Made by a program: the position numbers and the translations under genes. The notes beneath the pieces are model-generated. The model saw only the letters and a program-made list of their open reading frames with translations. It had not been told where the DNA came from and searched no databases. Of a stretch of DNA of 64,000 nt, positions 985-57,389 are shown one piece after another. The stretch's first letter is position 1. Every line of letters starts with the position of its first letter. The DNA comes from Candidatus Rubrimentiphilum sp. (lineage in GTDB: Bacteria; Vulcanimicrobiota; Vulcanimicrobiia; Vulcanimicrobiales; Vulcanimicrobiaceae), in assembly GCA_035710515.1 (NCBI GenBank), contig DASTDE010000002.1, forward strand, positions 62,001-126,000, written 5' to 3'.

Positions 985-1560
985 TTATTCCGAAAACACC
1001 CAGGACTGCAGCTGCGCGAGGTAGGGGAGGTTGCGATAGTTTTCTTGGTAGTCCAAACCGTACCCTACGACAAACACCTCAGGCGCGACCAAACCGACGT
1101 AATCCACGGGCACCTCGACGCGCCGGTTGTACGGTTTATCGAACAGGACGCACGATCGCAGACTGGCCGGTTCGCGCCCGGAGAGTAACGAACGAAGGTA
1201 CTGCAGCGTGAGCCCGTTGTCGATGATATCCTCGATCACGAGCACGTTTCTGCCCGCAATCTTTTCACCGGTATCCTTCAGCAATCGCACCTCTCCGCTC
1301 GACCGGGTCGAGTTTCCATAACTGGAAACGACGATGAAGTCGAGTTCGATTCTGCTGGGGCCGTCGGGCAGGCGCGAGAGGGCTCGAACCAAGTCCACAG
1401 TCACATACAGCGCTCCCTTTAACACGCCCAGCACGAGGAGCGGTTTCCCGGCGTAATCACGGGCAATCTCACGCGCCAAACGCTCGATGGCAGCCGCGAT
1501 CTCCTCGACTGAAAAGAGTTCCTTTTCGATCGTCTTTTCGTAGGTCAGCGTGCCGCTCAT
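985..1560 (-). CDS. hpt: Hypoxanthine phosphoribosyltransferase
   Basis: Purine salvage enzyme converting hypoxanthine (or guanine) and PRPP to IMP (GMP). The 191-residue length is typical. The PRPP-binding loop is EDIIDNGLT (residues 110-118), where the family usually has D-T/S-G; the Asn is a mild variation. [10 protein letters not shown] (41-50) is the conserved beta-strand/loop, and [18 protein letters not shown] the flexible loop. The ATG at 1560 overlaps the tilS stop as TGATG; a GTG one codon upstream is also possible. Sits in the tilS-hpt-ftsH arrangement conserved in many bacteria. Confidence 0.93.
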
Positions 1561-2444
1561 CACTTCCGTTGTACGACCAAGGCCCCCCCGGCGACTTCAA
1601 TTTCGACCCCCGGAGCCATGAAAAAGCGGCCGGAGGCTCCCTGCTGGAGGGCCCGGACCGCAGCCTCGACGTGCTCGAAATCCACCCCGTCCAACGCCTC
1701 GTGCTCGCGCAGCGCCTGCCGGACCTGCCGTCGCGCCGCGGCCAGCGGCGTGGCCGCGAGCTCGGCGCCCACGACTTCGGCGGCCCGGGCGACGGCTGCG
1801 TCGAGGCCGGGGAATAGCGGCCGCAGGGCTTCGAGCGCCAGCCGGACGGCGTTGCGCCGCAGCGTCCGGTCGGCGTTGGTCGGATCGATTGCGTACGGCA
1901 GGCCCGCGAACTGGACGTACGAGCGGAGCTCTTCGCGCTCGAGGCGCAGCAGCGGACGGGCAAGCTCGAGATCCATTCCGAGCGCGCGTCGCGCCGGCAT
2001 GCCCGCCAATCCATCGGCTCCCGCTCCGCGAAAGAGCGCGAGCAGTACCGTTTCAGTTTGATCGCCGGCCGTGTGGCCCGTGGCAACAACGGTAGCGCCG
2101 GCCTCGCGCGCCAGTCTTTCGAGGGCCTCGTATCGGGCTTCGCGCATCGCGGCTTCGTCCCGCCGGCGCAGCTGTAATCCCATCACCTTTAATGGAAGGC
2201 CGAGAGCTGCCGCGACGCGCAAAACGACGGCCTCGTCTTGCCAAGCCGATTCGCGCACGCCGTGGTTGACGTGCGCCAGCGTCAGGCGCAGACGCAGCGG
2301 CTTCAAAAGCGCCTGCAAAATCGCGGCCAGCGCCACGCTGTCGGAGCCGCCGCTACAGGCGATCAAGACGTGCTCGCCGGCGCGAATCGCGCCGTCGCGC
2401 TTCACGCTCTGCTCGATCCCCAGCAACGGCTTGGTGCCTCGCAT
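1560..2444 (-). CDS. tilS: tRNA(Ile)-lysidine synthase (short form)
   Basis: Modifies C34 of the CAU-anticodon tRNA-Ile to lysidine so that it reads AUA; ATP-dependent and cytosolic. The PP-loop SGGSDS is at residues 31-36, followed by the N-terminal HUP-type core (TLAHVNHGVRESAWQDE, ATGHTAGDQTETVLLALFRG). At 294 residues it lacks the C-terminal tRNA-recognition domains found in proteins of 430 residues or more, and ends with a short segment after the core, as in minimal TilS proteins. The ATG overlaps the smpB stop (TGATG) and the stop overlaps the hpt ATG, so translation is probably coupled through the chain. Confidence 0.9.
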   Translation of the reverse strand: MRGTKPLLGIEQSVKRDGAIRAGEHVLIACSGGSDSVALAAILQALLKPLRLRLTLAHVNHGVRESAWQDEAVVLRVAAALGLPLKVMGLQLRRRDEAAMREARYEALERLAREAGATVVATGHTAGDQTETVLLALFRGAGADGLAGMPARRALGMDLELARPLLRLEREELRSYVQFAGLPYAIDPTNADRTLRRNAVRLALEALRPLFPGLDAAVARAAEVVGAELAATPLAAARRQVRQALREHEALDGVDFEHVEAAVRALQQGASGRFFMAPGVEIEVAGGALVVQRK

Positions 2445-2926
2445 CAGCGGGAGTGGCGAGCGATCTCGCGCTCGACGTCGCGCTTGGCGGTGTCCGCGCG
2501 TTTATCCCAGAGTTTTTTGCCGCGCGCCAGGCCGATTTCCACTTTGGCTTTGCCGCGTGTGAAGTACAGACGCAGTGGAACCAGCGTCAGGCCTTTTTCG
2601 GAAGCCTTCCCGCCCAAACGCACGATCTGTTCTTTGTGCAACAGCAGTTTGCGCGGACGATCCGGCTCGACGTTCGAGAAGCTCCCTTGTTTATATGCCG
2701 GGATGTGCATGCCGAGCAGCCACATCTCTCCGTCCCGGAGCCGCGCGTAGGCTTGATTCAGGCTGATGCCGCCCGCCCGGATCGATTTGATCTCGGTTCC
2801 GGTGAGCGCGATACCGGCCTCGAGCGACTCCAGAATGTGAAATTCATGGCGCGCGCGGCGGTTGTCTACCGCGGGCGCTGCTTTCTTGACGGCTTTGGCA
2901 ACTCGCGTTTGTTTAGATTTTGCCAT
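2444..2926 (-). CDS. smpB: SsrA-binding protein SmpB
   Basis: Small basic protein that binds tmRNA and brings it to stalled ribosomes for trans-translation. Diagnostic segments are NRRARHEFHILESLEAGIAL, TEIKSIRAGGISL, a YARLRDGEMWLLGMHI block and LTLVPLRLYFTRGKAKVEIG, with a basic C-terminal tail. I start it at the ATG at 2926 (MAKSKQTRV), which overlaps the end of the upstream thioesterase by 14 nt. An ATG at 2947 is in frame but would add seven atypical residues. No tmRNA gene (ssrA) is visible in the window. Confidence 0.93.
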   Translation of the reverse strand: MAKSKQTRVAKAVKKAAPAVDNRRARHEFHILESLEAGIALTGTEIKSIRAGGISLNQAYARLRDGEMWLLGMHIPAYKQGSFSNVEPDRPRKLLLHKEQIVRLGGKASEKGLTLVPLRLYFTRGKAKVEIGLARGKKLWDKRADTAKRDVEREIARHSR

Positions 2927-3350
2927 CGGCCAAATGATCGTCGGCATCTTCGACGCGTCCTTGCGCGACGAACCGGCCCTCCGCCTCGACGAGCACCGCG
3001 CCGGTTTCGTCGCTGACGTGGGCTTCGATCTCCAAAACGTTGCGGCGCATCCACTTGATGCGTCCCTCGATCGCGATCGGCGCGTTCAGCGGAACCGGTT
3101 TGCGAAAGCGCGCGTTCATGCTGCCGGTCACGCCGCGATAGCCGGCGTATCCCGCCGCGTGCGCCATCGCTTCGTCGAGCAGCGCCAGCGCGACGCCGCC
3201 GTGTGCGATGCCCCGCCACCCTTGAAACTGATCGCCCAGCGTGGCGCGCGCACGGACGCCGTCGTCGCCGTTCCGTTCAAACTTGAGGTGCATGCCGATC
3301 TCGTTTTCCGGTCCGCATGCGAAACAGTGGCCGTCGTCGATCGGCCTCAT
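2913..3350 (-). CDS. PaaI-type hotdog-fold acyl-CoA thioesterase
   Basis: A 145-residue hotdog-fold protein. The catalytic-loop signature GWRGIAHGGVALALLDEAMA (HGG at 50-52, Glu60) is typical of PaaI/YigI-type thioesterases that hydrolyse acyl-CoA esters. The N-terminal HCFACGPEN motif is found in a recognisable subgroup of this family. The substrate cannot be told from sequence. It overlaps the phosphoesterase stop by 4 nt (ATGA) and smpB by 14 nt, placing it inside the housekeeping chain. Confidence 0.8.
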   Translation of the reverse strand: MRPIDDGHCFACGPENEIGMHLKFERNGDDGVRARATLGDQFQGWRGIAHGGVALALLDEAMAHAAGYAGYRGVTGSMNARFRKPVPLNAPIAIEGRIKWMRRNVLEIEAHVSDETGAVLVEAEGRFVAQGRVEDADDHLADGKI

Positions 3351-4072
3351 CGGCCTTGCTCGAGCCGCGTCGCGAGTACTTCGGGCAAACCGGCCGCCAA
3401 GATCTTTTCTTGAACGGCTCTAATCGGATACTCGTAACGCACCCACTCCACGCGTCGAGCTTCCGGCTCGTAGAACACAAAAGATGGTTGCGGATTGAGA
3501 TCGCGCGGCTGCCCGACGCTACCGACGTCGATGATATACCGCTTGCCGGGTTCGAGCTGCAGTTCGCCCCCGTGCTGCCGGTGCTCGTGGCCGATGCTGC
3601 CGTCGGCTTCCAGCGAGTAGTACTCCGCAACGTGCGTGTGTCCGACGAAGATCAGCGGCGCGTCGGTGCGTTCGAACGCCGCCTTGGCGTGCCGCTTCTC
3701 CAAAATGTACTCGAAGTAGTTCACGGGCGCGCCGTGCACGAGCAAGAACTCAGGATGGCGCACTTCGTATCCCAAGCCGTTGAGCCACTCGATGTTGCTG
3801 CGATCGATCTTGCCCTGCGTCCAGGCGATCGCCGTGCGCGCCGCCGGGTTGAAATACTCCACGCCGAAGTTGTCGACCGCCGCGACTTCATGGTTGCCCA
3901 GCACGCACTCCGCCGCACGCTCGCGGATCATGCTCACGCACTCGTTCGGATTGGGTCCGTATCCGACCGTGTCGCCTAAACACAACACGCGATCGTCCGG
4001 CTTCATCAGCGCGAAGGCAGCTTCAAGCGATTCGAGGTTGCCGTGAATGTCCGAGACGATCGCGTACCTCAT
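3347..4072 (-). CDS. Calcineurin-like metallophosphoesterase (YfcE/MJ0936-like)
   Basis: Cytosolic binuclear-metal phosphoesterase of 241 residues. Metal-ligand motifs appear in the family order: SDIHGN (Asp8, His10), GDTVGYGPNP (Asp34), GNHE (Asn60, His61), VHGAP and FVGHTH near residues 155-160. This is the classic MJ0936/YfcE type; members act on phosphodiesters or small phosphomonoesters and the physiological substrate is generally unknown. The start at 4072 (MRYAIV) makes an ATGA overlap with the hisC stop; an in-frame ATG five codons upstream lies inside hisC. Confidence 0.85.
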   Translation of the reverse strand: MRYAIVSDIHGNLESLEAAFALMKPDDRVLCLGDTVGYGPNPNECVSMIRERAAECVLGNHEVAAVDNFGVEYFNPAARTAIAWTQGKIDRSNIEWLNGLGYEVRHPEFLLVHGAPVNYFEYILEKRHAKAAFERTDAPLIFVGHTHVAEYYSLEADGSIGHEHRQHGGELQLEPGKRYIIDVGSVGQPRDLNPQPSFVFYEPEARRVEWVRYEYPIRAVQEKILAAGLPEVLATRLEQGR

Positions 4073-23781: not shown

Positions 23782-23787
23782 TATACT
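23782..23787 (+). promoter_or_regulatory. Likely -10 element of the M-box operon
   Basis: TATACT would place transcription initiation near 23794, just before the first paired base of the M-box at 23797. No good -35 sits at 16-18 bp. TTGACA at 23748 and TTGACC at 23768 are at wrong spacings (28 and 8 bp), so activator or extended recognition is possible. Confidence 0.45.
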
Positions 23788-23796
23788 TAGATGAGG

Positions 23797-23964
23797 ATAC
23801 CTCGCTAGGTGAGGCGTCCACGCGACACAGAGGCCGCTGCCCGGAAACGTCGAGAGACGCCAAGCGGGTAGACCAGACTTCGCCGATATAAGGCGTCGTT
23901 TAAGGCGGCTAAGCCCCTCCGGGCTTTACGGCGCGTGGTGCCAAAGCAGACGCGATTGGGGTAT
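23797..23964 (+). ncRNA. M-box (ykoK leader) Mg2+ riboswitch
   Basis: The sequence matches the M-box aptamer in order. P1 is ATACC-TCGC (23797-23805) pairing with GCGA...GGTAT (23952-23964). Then come GCTAGGTGAGGC (23804-23815), CCGCTGCCC (23834-23842), GAGAGACGCCAAG (23852-23864), GGGTAGACC, a GATATAAGGC stem and GTGCCAAAGC (23938-23947). Established knowledge: high Mg2+ compacts this RNA and favours a downstream terminator, shutting off Mg2+ transporter genes. An intrinsic terminator follows at 23989-24024 and the first gene starts at 24045. Confidence 0.88.
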
Positions 23965-23988
23965 AGAACGCGCTAGCCGTTCCACGCC

Positions 23989-24024
23989 ACGACCGGTCGC
24001 CCAGCGAGCCGGTCGTTTTATTTT
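23989..24024 (+). terminator. Expression-platform terminator of the M-box riboswitch
   Basis: Eight-bp perfect stem ACGACCGG/CCGGTCGT with a 12-nt loop, followed by TTTATTTT. It lies between the aptamer and the ribosome site AAGGAGGT (24031-24038) of the first gene. The position and T-run are those of a riboswitch-controlled intrinsic terminator. The antiterminator pairing was not resolved by eye. Confidence 0.82.
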
Positions 24025-24044
24025 GCACGGAAGGAGGTGGCAAA

Positions 24045-25343
24045 ATGGCATTCCAGGACGGATTCATTTCGGAGCTCGTCGGCAGACGCGCGACCGTCAA
24101 CGAATTACCGATCGGCAGAGTTACCGATTTCTTGGTCAACAGTCCCGACGAAGTCTTCCCGCAAGTTGATGGGCTCGTCGTGAAGACGACGCAAGGGCCG
24201 CGTTTCGCGCCGATGGACACTGTGGTGGACGTCGATGCGGATGGATTCGTCGCGCTGAATGCAGCTCCGAAGATCGCCGCACCTCCGGATGAAGAGTCGC
24301 TGTATCTCGTTCTCGACCTGCTCGACAAACAGATCGTTGACGTAGACGGGCGTAAGGTTGTGCGCATCAACGACATCGAGCTCGCCAACACCGGCGGAAA
24401 ATTGCGCGTCGTCGCCGCCGACGTCGGACTCAGCGGTCTGCTGCGCCGCCTCGGGCTCAAGAGTTTTGGCAAGCGGTTCGCACCCTGGGTCTATCGCAGC
24501 ATTCCGCGCACGATGATTGCGTGGGATTCGGTCGCTCCCATTCGCGAGAAGAATCCGACGCAAATCCACCTTGCCGTAAAAGAGAGCAAGCTCGCGCGTC
24601 TGCATCCGAGCGAGTTGGCGGAAGTCATCAACGAGCTTTCTGCGCGCGAAGCTGCCGCGGTCATTCACTCGTTGGATGACGAGACGGCCGCCGACGCCCT
24701 TGAGCATCTCGAACCGGTAAAACAGCGCGCGATCATCGAGGATATCGGCAGAGAACGCGCGGCCGACATCATCGAGGAGATGGATTCCGACGATGCAGCC
24801 GACTTGCTCGGCGAGCTGCCCGAAGATCAGCAGAGCGAGTTGCTGGCGGAGATGAACCAATCCACCGCCGGCGAGCTGCGCGAACTGGTCAAATACGAGG
24901 AAGACACGGCCGGCGGCTTGATGACGACGGACTACGTCTGGATCTATCCGCACCGCACGGCCGAAGAGACGATTCATAAGATCCGCGAGATCGCTCCCGA
25001 GTCGGAGTTCATCTACTACCTGTACGTTCTCGACAAGAACGAACGGCTGCTCGGCGCGTTGAGCTTGCGCGCGCTCCTGTTGGCACCGCCCGACCATACG
25101 ATCGAGCGGATCATGAAGGGCGAACTCGTGACCGTTCCGCCCAACACGAAATCGCGCGACGTAGCGGCAACCATAGCGCGTTACGACTTGCTCGCCGTTC
25201 CCGTCGTGGACGCGGAAGGCAACATGCTGGGCATCGTCACCGTCGACGACGCGATCGATGCGATCATGCCCGAGGACCTGGCAAAAGAACTTCCCCGCAT
25301 TACACCGGCGCGCCGCACCAGCCGCCCGCAGGCGCAAGGCTAA
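24045..25343 (+). CDS. Soluble PRC-barrel / MgtE_N / CBS-pair protein
   Basis: A 432-residue cytosolic protein. It has a PRC-barrel-like N-terminus (about 1-150, with two repeats, LPIGRVTDFLVNSP and DVDGRKVVRINDIEL), then the MgtE N-terminal superhelix (about 180-290: LHPSELAEVINELS, DDETAADALEHLEP, SDDAADLLGELPEDQ), then a CBS pair (about 290-420: AGGLMTTDYVWI, RIMKGELVTVPP, LAVPVVDAEGNMLGIVTVDD). In MgtE these domains bind Mg2+ and gate the channel, but here no transmembrane domain follows. The perfect AAGGAGGT ribosome site and the M-box upstream, plus an Nramp-type transporter 4 nt downstream, suggest it is the detached Mg2+-sensing regulator of that transporter. Confidence 0.88.
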   Translation: MAFQDGFISELVGRRATVNELPIGRVTDFLVNSPDEVFPQVDGLVVKTTQGPRFAPMDTVVDVDADGFVALNAAPKIAAPPDEESLYLVLDLLDKQIVDVDGRKVVRINDIELANTGGKLRVVAADVGLSGLLRRLGLKSFGKRFAPWVYRSIPRTMIAWDSVAPIREKNPTQIHLAVKESKLARLHPSELAEVINELSAREAAAVIHSLDDETAADALEHLEPVKQRAIIEDIGRERAADIIEEMDSDDAADLLGELPEDQQSELLAEMNQSTAGELRELVKYEEDTAGGLMTTDYVWIYPHRTAEETIHKIREIAPESEFIYYLYVLDKNERLLGALSLRALLLAPPDHTIERIMKGELVTVPPNTKSRDVAATIARYDLLAVPVVDAEGNMLGIVTVDDAIDAIMPEDLAKELPRITPARRTSRPQAQG

Positions 25344-25347
25344 ACCC

Positions 25348-26625
25348 GTGCCCCGCGCGCTGTTTCGCCGGCGAAACTTCTGGCGTTCGCTTCTGCTTCT
25401 GCTGTCCGTGCTCGGTCCGGGCTTCATTACGGCATCGGCCGGCAACGACGTGGGCGGTATCACAACCTACTCGCAAGCCGGCGCGCAATTCGGTTATCGC
25501 ATCCTCTGGGTGCTTATCCCGTTGATGGTCGCGCTGATCGTCGTCCAGGAGATGGCGACGCGCATGGGCGCCGTCACCGGAAAAGGCCTGGCCGCGCTCA
25601 TTCGTGAGAACTTCGGCGTGCGGGTGTCGTTTTTGGCAATGGCCGCGCTCTTTGCGATCAATCTAGTCATTACGGCCACCGAATTTGCGGGCATCGCGGC
25701 CGCGTCTGAAATATGGCACATCTCGCGCTACATCGCGGTGCCCGTCTTCATGTTGCTGGTGTTGATTCTCGTGTTCGGTTTCAACAGCAAGAGCATCGAT
25801 CGCGTCTTTGTCGTGTTTTCGCTGATTTATTTCTGTTATATTGCGTCGGCGATCCTCGCGCATCCCGATTGGAACGCGGTCGCGCACGGCGCGCTGGTGC
25901 CAAACCTCAATTTCAATAATCATCTGTACTTGGTCATGGTCGTAGGGCTGATCGGCACGACGATCTCGCCGTACATGCAATTCTTCTTGCAATCCGCGGT
26001 CGTCGAAAAGGGGGCGGACGAGCGGGAGTTGGGGCTCGCGCGCGCGGACGTGATCGGCGGGTCGATTCTGGCAATCACGATCGCGGGCTTCATGATTATT
26101 GCGAACGCCGCCACCATCTACGCGGCCAACCGTCACGGCGCGCATCTCGTTGAATCGCAAGCCGCGGACTTTGCCGCCGCGTTGCGCCCGTTGGCGGGTC
26201 AAGCGGCCTCGGTGATCTTTGCGCTTGGAATACTCAACGCCGGACTCTTTACCGCAACCGTGCTCCCGCTCTCGACGAGTTACGTGATCTGCGAAGCCTT
26301 CGGGTTCGAAGCCGCGCTCGATCGCAAGTTTTCCGAGGCGCCCGTCTTCTTCACACTTTTTACGTTGGGACTCATTGCGGGCGGAGCGCTCGTTCTTATC
26401 CCGCACCTTCCGCTGTTGAGACTGATCTTCTACGCGCAGGTTGCGCAAGGGATCTTGCTTCCACCCGAGCTCGTGCTCATGTTGATTATCATCAACAAAC
26501 GCAGCGTCATGGGACGCTTCACCAACGGCTGGGTGGGAAATCTGGTCGCGTGGGCGACCGTCGCGCTGGTCGGAGGGCTCTCGATCTACTACGTCATCGT
26601 GCAAGCTTTCGGCGGAACGGCCTAG
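25348..26625 (+). CDS. Nramp-family transporter, probably Mg2+ (NRMT-like)
   Basis: Eleven-helix SLC11/Nramp-type transporter of 425 residues. Helix 1 reads GPGFITASAGNDVGGITTYS: the metal-ligand Asp is kept (Asp34), but the Asn of the canonical DPGN motif is Gly37. Helix 6 reads GTTISPYMQFF, with Ser207 and Tyr209 where Mn2+/Fe2+ transporters have the conserved Met and His. Established work on Nramp proteins links that Met to selectivity for transition metals over Ca2+/Mg2+, and Nramp-related Mg2+ transporters under M-box control are known in clostridia. The start is GTG 25348, 4 nt after the regulator's stop. Confidence 0.85.
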   Translation: MPRALFRRRNFWRSLLLLLSVLGPGFITASAGNDVGGITTYSQAGAQFGYRILWVLIPLMVALIVVQEMATRMGAVTGKGLAALIRENFGVRVSFLAMAALFAINLVITATEFAGIAAASEIWHISRYIAVPVFMLLVLILVFGFNSKSIDRVFVVFSLIYFCYIASAILAHPDWNAVAHGALVPNLNFNNHLYLVMVVGLIGTTISPYMQFFLQSAVVEKGADERELGLARADVIGGSILAITIAGFMIIANAATIYAANRHGAHLVESQAADFAAALRPLAGQAASVIFALGILNAGLFTATVLPLSTSYVICEAFGFEAALDRKFSEAPVFFTLFTLGLIAGGALVLIPHLPLLRLIFYAQVAQGILLPPELVLMLIIINKRSVMGRFTNGWVGNLVAWATVALVGGLSIYYVIVQAFGGTA

Positions 26626-26647: not shown

Positions 26648-27796
26648 ATGACGGCCGACGAGTTGGTCGCATTTGCCGAAGATCTCGCTCGCATTGCGGC
26701 GGCAGGCGGCGGCGCGAAAGCGCTGGCCGGCCACCTGGCGCGAAGCGCGAGTGTCGGCGTGCTGGTTGAAAACGCGCAGTGGCAGCACCTTGCGGCCGCC
26801 GGCGGAATCGGCGTGCCCAGCAGCGTGCAGCCGCTTCTCGTCGATAATGCGGCTACCGATTTTCAACGCCTTCGCAATGGGTATGCCGGCCGCACGGTCG
26901 CAATCGTCACCGGCGACACGCGCTTGGGTCAGCTCTCGATCTTTGGAGATGCGGAGCTCGATCAGCTCGAACATGCCGCACGACTCACCGCCAGCGCAAT
27001 CGCCGTCGAGTTGGCGCGCGAGCTCGGCGCGCAGCCCGGTCGACGGCGTACGTTTTGGGAACGCCTAGCGTCGGAGAGTTACAGCGACGCCGTCGCCGCA
27101 CGAGACGATGCGGCGGCCCGCGGTATCGCACTAGCGACGCACTATGTTGCAGTCGCCCTTGAAGTTGAAACCGGCGATGCGGGCGCACTTCGGGCCGCTG
27201 TGTTGGAAGCGTTTCGCGGTGGCGAAGGCGACGCCGGCGTGCTGGAACGCGGCGGCACGCTCGTCGTTTTAGTACCGGCGTCGCGCGAGGTTGACGCCTC
27301 AAACGCGCGCACTGCCTCGGCGCTGCTGCCGCGCACGTTACAGAAAAAACAATTCGACGCGACCATCACCGGCGGTGTCGGAACGCGCGTGCCGGCCTTG
27401 TCCCTGCATCGTTCGCTCGCCGAGGCGGAAGTTGCGCTTACTATCGCGCGGCGTCTTTACGGCGCCGGACGCGTCGGCGTCTACGACGATCTGGGCGCGT
27501 ACCCCCTGCTGCTCTCAGGCGGCGACGCCGACGCGATGCGCGAATTCGCGCGCCGCATTCTCGCGCCGTTGCGCGCCTATGACGAAAAACATCAAACCGA
27601 ATTGGAACGCACGCTGCGGCTCTATTTTTCCGTCGGCGAGAACGTGAAGACGGCGGCGGCCGAACTGAGCGTGCACCGTCACACGGTTTTCTACCGGCTG
27701 CGGCAGATCGGAGAGATCTGCGGATGCAAGCTCGACGACCCTCACGATCAGCTTACGCTGAGAATGGCGATTGCAATTGATGCACTTACCGGTTAG
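26648..27796 (+). CDS. PucR-family transcriptional regulator
   Basis: A 382-residue regulator. The C-terminal PucR helix-turn-helix (about 320-375) reads TLRLYFSVGENVKTAAAELSV, followed by HRHTVFYRLRQIGEI. A GGDEF-like/CdaR middle region (about 160-290) and a GAF-like N-terminus (about 20-120) match CdaR/PucR architecture. Such proteins sense small metabolites, often in purine, sugar-acid or polyamine catabolism. It lies 22 nt after the transporter and overlaps the downstream glutamine-synthetase-like gene by 17 nt, so it probably regulates that gene. Confidence 0.82.
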   Translation: MTADELVAFAEDLARIAAAGGGAKALAGHLARSASVGVLVENAQWQHLAAAGGIGVPSSVQPLLVDNAATDFQRLRNGYAGRTVAIVTGDTRLGQLSIFGDAELDQLEHAARLTASAIAVELARELGAQPGRRRTFWERLASESYSDAVAARDDAAARGIALATHYVAVALEVETGDAGALRAAVLEAFRGGEGDAGVLERGGTLVVLVPASREVDASNARTASALLPRTLQKKQFDATITGGVGTRVPALSLHRSLAEAEVALTIARRLYGAGRVGVYDDLGAYPLLLSGGDADAMREFARRILAPLRAYDEKHQTELERTLRLYFSVGENVKTAAAELSVHRHTVFYRLRQIGEICGCKLDDPHDQLTLRMAIAIDALTG

Positions 27797-29093
27797 CGAC
27801 TCCCGGCGCGCCGCCGGCAAACGCGAAGTCTTGCGCCTGGCCAAGGACCGGCACGTGCAGTTCGTACGCCTGGCGTTTGCCGACGTGCTCGGCGTCGGCA
27901 AGAACGTGTCGATTCCGGTGAGCGAATTGGAAGCGGCGCTGGAAGGCAAAGTGACGTTCGACGGCGGCTCGATCGACGGGTTCGTGCGTGGCGAAGAGCT
28001 CGACATGGTCCTGCGGCCGGACCCGGCAACATTCGCGCTCTACCCATGGTCGACTCCGGAAGCTTCGGAAGCGCGACTGCTCTGCGACATCGCCATGCCT
28101 GACGGCTCGCCGTTCGAAGGCTGTCCGCGCACCACGCTCAAGCGGGCGATCGAGAAGGCCAAAGGTTCGCTCCAAGGGATCGCCGTCGCGCTCGAGGTCG
28201 AGTTCTATCTCTTCGAAGCGATGGACAGCGAATACGGTTCGACCAAGACTTCGGACGTCGGGTCATACTTCGATTTCTCCGCCAACGATCGCGGCGAGGA
28301 TGCACGCAGCGCGATCGTCAGCGCGCTGCAAGCGATGGGCGTGGCGATTGCCGGCTCACATCACGAGCACGGGCCGGGACAGCACGAGATCGACTTTCCG
28401 CACATCGATCCGCTGGCCGCCGCCGACGGCTTGCTCACGCTGCGCACGATCGCAAAGCACGTCGCGGCCGCGCGCGGACTCGAAGCGACGTTCATGCCGA
28501 AGCCGATCGAAGATCGCGCGGGAAGCGGCCTGCACGTGAATTTCCGCGTCTCACCCGAACAGCAGCCCGAAATGCTCTACATGATAGGCGGCCTGCTGGC
28601 GCACGCAGCCGCACTCACCGCCGTCTGTAACTCTACCGTCAACTCATACAAACGATTGGTCAACGCGTGGGACGCGCCGATCTATACCGTCTGGTCCGAG
28701 CGCAGCGCGAACGCGCTCGTGCGCGTGCCGCCGCAGGAGCAACCTCCGCAAATCGAGATGCGCAGCCCGGACGCTGCCGGGAATCCATATCTTTCACTGG
28801 CGGTCTTACTGCGAGCGCTCGCGGACGGCGTCGAGCAGCAGCATCTTCCCGGCGATCCGCTTGTCGGGTCAACGTACGATTTGACGGAACGCGAGCGCCA
28901 CGAGCGGGGGATCGGGACGCTGCCGAAATCGTTACGTCAGGCTATCGCCGAGCTCGACGAAGATCCCGTTGTCAGAGCCGCGCTGGGCGATCACATCTAT
29001 CATGCCTTCCGCGATGCGAAACTTGCGGAATACGAACGGTACCGCCGCGCGGTTCATCCGTGGGAGCATCGCGCGTACTTGCGGTTGTACTAA
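27780..29093 (+). CDS. Glutamine-synthetase-like ligase (GSI-alpha size)
   Basis: A 437-residue class I glutamine synthetase fold protein. Beta-grasp N-terminus: VQFVRLAFADVLGVGKNVSIP. Catalytic segments: VTFDGGSIDGF, ALEVEFYLF, HHEHGPGQHEIDF, FMPKPIEDRAGSGLHVNF, NSTVNSYKRLV and IEMRSPDAAGNPYLSLAVLL. The region around STYDLTERERHERGIG lacks the NLYDLPPE-type adenylylation motif, unlike the second copy at 61114. It could be a true GSI-alpha glutamine synthetase or a gamma-glutamyl-amine ligase (PuuA-like); the PucR neighbour favours the latter. ATG 27780 is preferred to TTG 27771. Confidence 0.82.
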   Translation: MHLPVSDSRRAAGKREVLRLAKDRHVQFVRLAFADVLGVGKNVSIPVSELEAALEGKVTFDGGSIDGFVRGEELDMVLRPDPATFALYPWSTPEASEARLLCDIAMPDGSPFEGCPRTTLKRAIEKAKGSLQGIAVALEVEFYLFEAMDSEYGSTKTSDVGSYFDFSANDRGEDARSAIVSALQAMGVAIAGSHHEHGPGQHEIDFPHIDPLAAADGLLTLRTIAKHVAAARGLEATFMPKPIEDRAGSGLHVNFRVSPEQQPEMLYMIGGLLAHAAALTAVCNSTVNSYKRLVNAWDAPIYTVWSERSANALVRVPPQEQPPQIEMRSPDAAGNPYLSLAVLLRALADGVEQQHLPGDPLVGSTYDLTERERHERGIGTLPKSLRQAIAELDEDPVVRAALGDHIYHAFRDAKLAEYERYRRAVHPWEHRAYLRLY

Positions 29094-57164: not shown

Positions 57165-57218
57165 AGCTTTCAAAAGACCAGGAAGGCTCGCCTGCAGCGC
57201 GTATCAAGTGCGTATCGC

Positions 57219-57354
57219 ATTTGTGCGCGGGAAGCCGGTCAAAAACCGGCACGGTCGCGCCACTGTAGGCGGGGAGCCGCCCGGCGTCACTCCATTTTGG
57301 GGGAAGGCCCGGGCACCAGGCTACGATCCGCGAGTCAGGATACCAGCGCAAATG
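57219..57354 (+). ncRNA. Cobalamin riboswitch
   Basis: Conserved elements in order: GGGAAGCCGGT (57229-57239) with AAAAACCGGCACGG, CGCGCCACTGTA (57256-57267), a CACT motif, GGGGGAAGGC (57299-57308), ACCAG and the B12 box GAGTCAGGATACC (57332-57344). Outer strands CATTTG (57219-57224) and CAAATG (57349-57354) close the element. Established function: binding of adenosyl- or other cobalamin represses downstream expression. The btuB ATG follows at 57390 with GGAAGGGG (57377-57384). Confidence 0.9.
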
Positions 57355-57389
57355 CCGCACAACCACCTCGCGAAAAGGAAGGGGTTGCC

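Follow-up and report, generated by a model that had tools for sequence, protein, structure and literature searches.

We found a Mg2+ uptake operon in the soil bacterium Candidatus Rubrimentiphilum sp. that appears to carry two layers of feedback, a riboswitch and a sensor protein, and the best reading of its sequence and of structural models, which we hold with somewhat better than even confidence, is that the sensor regulates the transporter NrmT. The operon lies in a 64,000-nucleotide stretch of contig DASTDE010000002.1 (hereafter, the window) from a 2.54-Mb genome that is 96% complete. This kind of operon has been known since 2014, when Shin et al. (PMC4072509) reported that M-box-controlled Nramp-related genes transport Mg2+ and named the transporter NrmT. 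They also noted an MgtE-like neighbour beside most NrmT genes and speculated that it exerts cytoplasmic feedback, with chaperone activity named as the alternative. The gating mechanism of the original prediction, in which the regulatory half of MgtE gates an unrelated transporter, is this published hypothesis. The Ca_c0685 operon of Clostridium acetobutylicum (PMC4072509) has the same combination of an M-box, a homologue of the MgtE cytoplasmic domain and an Nramp-related Mg2+ transporter, whereas the operon described here belongs to another phylum, has a single uninterrupted gene for its sensor, which includes a PRC region, and has a serine at the helix-6 metal position of its transporter. 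We found no literature after Shin et al. 2014 on the function of the MgtE-like neighbour of NrmT. What is new here is indirect support for the 2014 feedback idea from co-occurrence, ligand retention, a fusion model and genome context.

The operon consists, in order and entirely on the forward strand, of an M-box (23794-23967), an intrinsic terminator (23989-24024), a strong Shine-Dalgarno sequence read from the DNA (AAGGAGGTG, 24031-24039), gene 1 for a sensor of 432 amino acids (24045-25343) and gene 2 for an NrmT of 425 amino acids (25348-26625), which has a GTG start and begins 4 nt past the gene 1 stop. The coordinates and gene order given by the original prediction were correct in all points. 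A covariance-model scan matched the M-box (ykoK leader) Mg2+ riboswitch family RF00380 at 126.8 bits (E 4.5e-28; gathering score, 44) over the full model, positions 1-169, so that the aptamer recognized earlier is complete, and the Rfam scan found no other M-box in the genome. In the expression platform, a bulged stem (23989-24016) precedes UUUUAUUUU, with an energy of -19.5 kcal/mol and a z of -3.1 relative to shuffled sequences, in agreement with the terminator that had been proposed before the first gene. A simple terminator scanner made no call at 23989-24024 because the stem is bulged. Most of the relatives checked also have a hairpin and U-tract between the M-box and the first gene. The arrangement shows no essential difference from known M-boxes, in that a complete aptamer and terminator stand ahead of a Mg2+ transport operon, and on sequence grounds M-box control of the operon could hardly be more certain. 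Given the known M-box mechanism, high cellular Mg2+ would cause the aptamer to fold and the terminator to form, switching off both genes. Downstream of the operon (26648-29093), a gene for a PucR-type regulator overlaps a glutamine synthetase-family gene. Elsewhere in the window, a Cobalamin riboswitch (57204-57367, 72.7 bits) is followed by apparent genes for a TonB-dependent receptor, a BtuC/FecCD-type permease and an ABC ATPase.

The first gene had been described as a PRC-barrel, MgtE_N and CBS-pair protein that lacks the MgtE channel, and this description held. The domain search identified PRC, MgtE_N (E 8.7e-27) and two CBS domains, while the channel domain PF01769 was absent from gene 1 and TIGR00400 scored below its cut-off. 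The best PDB match was the MgtE cytosolic domain 2yvy (E 3.5e-41), and the AlphaFold model resembled the MgtE cytosolic domains 2zy9/2yvy in a Foldseek search. The protein is divided into an N-terminal PRC-barrel region (amino acids 1-178, 24045-24578, with PF05239 at amino acids 91-130), the MgtE_N domain (amino acids 186-287, 24600-24905) and the CBS pair (amino acids 288-408, 24906-25268).

We then mapped the sensor residues onto Thermus MgtE in native numbering, taking the roles of the Mg2+ sites from PMC5882242. The interdomain ligand positions are kept: D217 (Mg7; Glu in MgtE), D249 (Mg4) and D253 (Mg6) in MgtE_N, and D402 (Mg4) and D381/D405 (Mg5) in the CBS pair. Of 36 diverse sensors, 35 carry Asp where the window protein has D249, D253 and D402, and the Mg4, Mg6 and Mg7 ligand positions are retained in nearly all or most sensors, with Mg5 (D381/D405) present in the window protein. 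In contrast, the plug-helix residues E258/D259 of MgtE (Mg2/Mg3) correspond to A413/K414 here and mostly to Ala, Lys or Arg in relatives. Because the interdomain ligands are kept and the plug-helix residues are not, those elements of the switch that shift the N and CBS domains are retained, and its plug-helix portion, which couples to the MgtE channel, is gone. The MgtE ATP-contact residues D188 and F227 (PMC5529423) are replaced by Ala and Leu in the window sensor. In other words, compared with the Thermus thermophilus channel (2yvx/2zy9), the sensor has the same MgtE_N and CBS pair and the same Mg4-Mg7 ligand positions, but it lacks the transmembrane channel and the Mg2/Mg3 residues and has an extra PRC module.

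This PRC region is the most conserved stretch of the sensor. It carries the motif DKQIVD..GRKVVR.ND...D.G..GLLRRLG, and eight of its residues (D94, Q96, R107, N109, D110, D126, R134 and R135) are invariant across 36 sequences. PRC modules bind partners in other systems, and the conserved stretch is likely to be a docking surface. We also modelled the two proteins together. The sensor and NrmT genes share a reading frame in several relatives, and read-through translations could therefore be used as paired rows in one AlphaFold job. The 859-residue fusion model reached a pTM of 0.71, compared with 0.53 for the sensor alone, with alignment depth and query differing between the jobs. The pLDDT of sensor amino acids 131-160, the GLLRRLG helix region, was ~58-73 in the sensor alone and 81-86 in the fusion, for which the alignment was deeper and the query different. 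As weak evidence, these values are compatible with a PRC module that would dock on NrmT while the MgtE_N/CBS part is held only loosely in place.

An alternative is that the sensor serves as a Mg2+-dependent partner in the assembly, stability or delivery of NrmT, in a chaperone-like manner and with no gating. This is the activity that Shin et al. (PMC4072509) named as the alternative, and the constant co-occurrence of the two genes described below would suit any obligate partner. The ability of PRC modules to bind partners elsewhere, given that they are the most conserved part here, suits this explanation as well. However, the residues of the MgtE switch are kept almost without exception, and a scaffold would not need them. 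In addition, NrmT moved Mg2+ in B. subtilis with no sensor present (PMC4072509). We therefore consider a chaperone-like role unlikely. The preferred reading, in which the sensor regulates NrmT, also meets counter-evidence. The published NrmT transports without a sensor, and co-expression of the Acidobacterium capsulatum sensor with its transporter did not improve rescue (PMC4072509).

The identification of gene 2 as an Nramp-fold transporter starting at 25348 was confirmed by a match to PF01566 (E 2.8e-87). Its closest solved relative in a PDB sequence search was EleNRMT (7qia; 332 bits, E 4.6e-98), compared with 85 bits (7e-23) for the best MntH, and a structure search likewise placed EleNRMT nearer than MntH. 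Using residue roles from PMC8806188, we found that gene 2 keeps the helix-1 Asp34 and helix-3 Glu113, has Ser207 in place of the helix-6 metal-site Met of NRAMPs and lacks both helix-6 His residues of the proton-coupled NRAMPs. EleNRMT from Eggerthella lenta (Ramanadane et al. 2022, PMC8806188) shares the fold, the Asp, the Glu and the absence of the Met and the His residues, but has Ala where Ser207 stands here. We saw nothing in PMC8806188 about a sensor that partners EleNRMT. By sequence, gene 2 is thus an NRMT-type transporter: it is nearer to NRMT than to NRAMP/MntH, and its metal-site pattern fits. At the helix-6 metal position, most relatives carry Ala and some Thr, and all 16 Eremiobacterota sequences carry Ser; among the relatives compared, this Ser is confined to Eremiobacterota. 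The helix-1 motif around NrmT residue 32 reads DND in most relatives; Eremiobacterota and EleNRMT, along with a few others, have GND.

We rejected the absence of the helix-6 Met as proof of Mg2+ selectivity. None of the 80 NrmT sequences in the genome collection has Met at this position, with or without an M-box; therefore, its absence alone does not prove a Mg2+ substrate. Changes to the metal site alone have also failed to yield Mg2+ transport (PMC8806188). Nevertheless, homology, the metal site and the M-box together make Mg2+ very probably the substrate that NrmT imports.

The genome context points in the same direction. No MgtE channel (PF01769), CorA or MgtA was found in the 2.54-Mb genome, which encodes one CNNM homologue and a second NRAMP. 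Therefore, this organism probably takes up most of its Mg2+ through NrmT, apparently its only dedicated Mg2+ importer. The second NRAMP gene (locus L002, 1402-2676) starts within the 3' end of a thiC-like gene and has neither sensor nor M-box. Among 83 genomes of the window's class of Eremiobacterota, NrmT was found in 79, CorA in 13 and an MgtE channel above the cut-off in none, and 66 have NrmT with neither CorA nor the MgtE channel. In this class, too, most Mg2+ probably enters through NrmT.

These data bear on the second alternative, in which the transporter would move mainly Mn2+ and the sensor would read Mn2+. It has a precedent in A. capsulatum, a member of the clade with the same gene pair but no M-box, whose NrmT fully rescued Mn2+ uptake and Mg2+ uptake only poorly (PMC4072509). 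However, an M-box controls the operon here, and the closest structure is that of the Mg2+ carrier EleNRMT. Moreover, no further dedicated Mg2+ importer of a known type is encoded in the genome, whereas a second NRAMP is. A Mn2+ system thus seems improbable.

The partnership was examined in the genome collection at the 80 closest NrmT loci, which come from Eremiobacterota, Bacillota, Bacteroidota, Ignavibacteria, Actinomycetota and others. The sensor gene lies just upstream of NrmT at 75 of the 80 loci. The other five belong to distant genomes, all of which encode a sensor elsewhere, in one case as two split genes. No natural sensor-NrmT fusion occurs among the 75 linked pairs, which counts against gating. 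A search of viral contigs with the sensor gave no match. Across 107 genomes of the window's phylum, 88 have both genes, 19 have neither and none has one alone. This co-occurrence is inflated by shared ancestry, which weakens a formal test. The two genes are unlinked in 36 genomes of this survey and convergent in three, and the tree (built without loci L086-L099) requires eight changes between the linked and not-linked states. The genes have therefore separated repeatedly while both were retained, a conclusion that does not depend on the omitted loci, and this pattern is difficult to account for unless the two share a function. There are thus reasons to treat the sensor as an obligate partner of NrmT. 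The neighbouring genes, the NRMT-type transporter, the Rfam match and the co-occurrence even when unlinked give good support to the proposal that two proteins form a Mg2+ system controlled by an M-box. The notion that the sensor has some other target, such as the CNNM-type protein encoded in this genome, and is merely co-regulated with NrmT would suit the many genomes in which the two genes are unlinked, but it is very improbable, given that the presence of the sensor tracks NrmT exactly and that the two adjoin so often.

The distribution of the M-box itself was also examined. It is present at 32 of the 80 nearest NrmT loci. Among the 36 unlinked sensors, one has a strong M-box (genome G056, 123 bits) and one a marginal M-box (G058, 44.8 bits), those of G057 and G059 score under the cut-off, and most have none. 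Therefore, the riboswitch tracks the transporter more than the sensor, which is a further point against gating. M-boxes scoring 33-45 bits, at or below the cut-off, lie 5' of unlinked sensors of one genus (L176 1271-1397, G057:C89:5764-5883 and G059:C84:12279-12395), and these low scores apparently reflect decay after separation from NrmT. M-boxes were also seen ahead of other genes. In L154 (G038) and L173 (G087), they lead genes (1127-2974 and, on the reverse strand, 1135-3099, respectively) for proteins of 615-654 amino acids with signal-peptide-like starts and no Pfam matches, which are possibly Mg2+-responsive outer-membrane proteins; at L154, the gene is positioned between the M-box and NrmT. 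Another M-box lies 5' of a gene in L171 (G069, 2902-3750) for a 282-amino-acid protein with weak likeness to Phenol_MetA_deg (E 0.024), in a genome with neither NrmT nor sensor. NRAMPs of another clade, with a VGDND site, are located 3' of M-boxes at L174 (3562-5214; 550 amino acids, with a C-terminal extension) and L211 (2-331, reverse strand), without a sensor. Genome G022 has a VGDND-type NRAMP and lacks both NrmT and the sensor.

In the regulatory reading that we prefer, the sensor would be the cytosolic regulatory half of MgtE carried on a PRC-barrel module, which would dock on the inner face of NrmT. Binding of Mg2+ would close the MgtE_N/CBS interface, and the sensor would then slow NrmT, adding feedback on the protein to that on the transcript. 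More broadly, we regard as evenly poised the idea that two unrelated transport machines share one Mg2+-sensing module. In MgtE it is fused to a channel, and here it would be a free-standing regulatory subunit, obligate and docked through its PRC region, that holds back a secondary transporter of LeuT fold. What the MgtE-like neighbour of NrmT does has been a question since 2014, on which the present survey bears, and the survey also points to bacteria, those of the window's class of Eremiobacterota, that seemingly rely on NrmT. If the mechanism is true, the sensor would provide an NRAMP-family carrier with a subunit for direct feedback by Mg2+, and a single sensing domain would control two unrelated transport folds.
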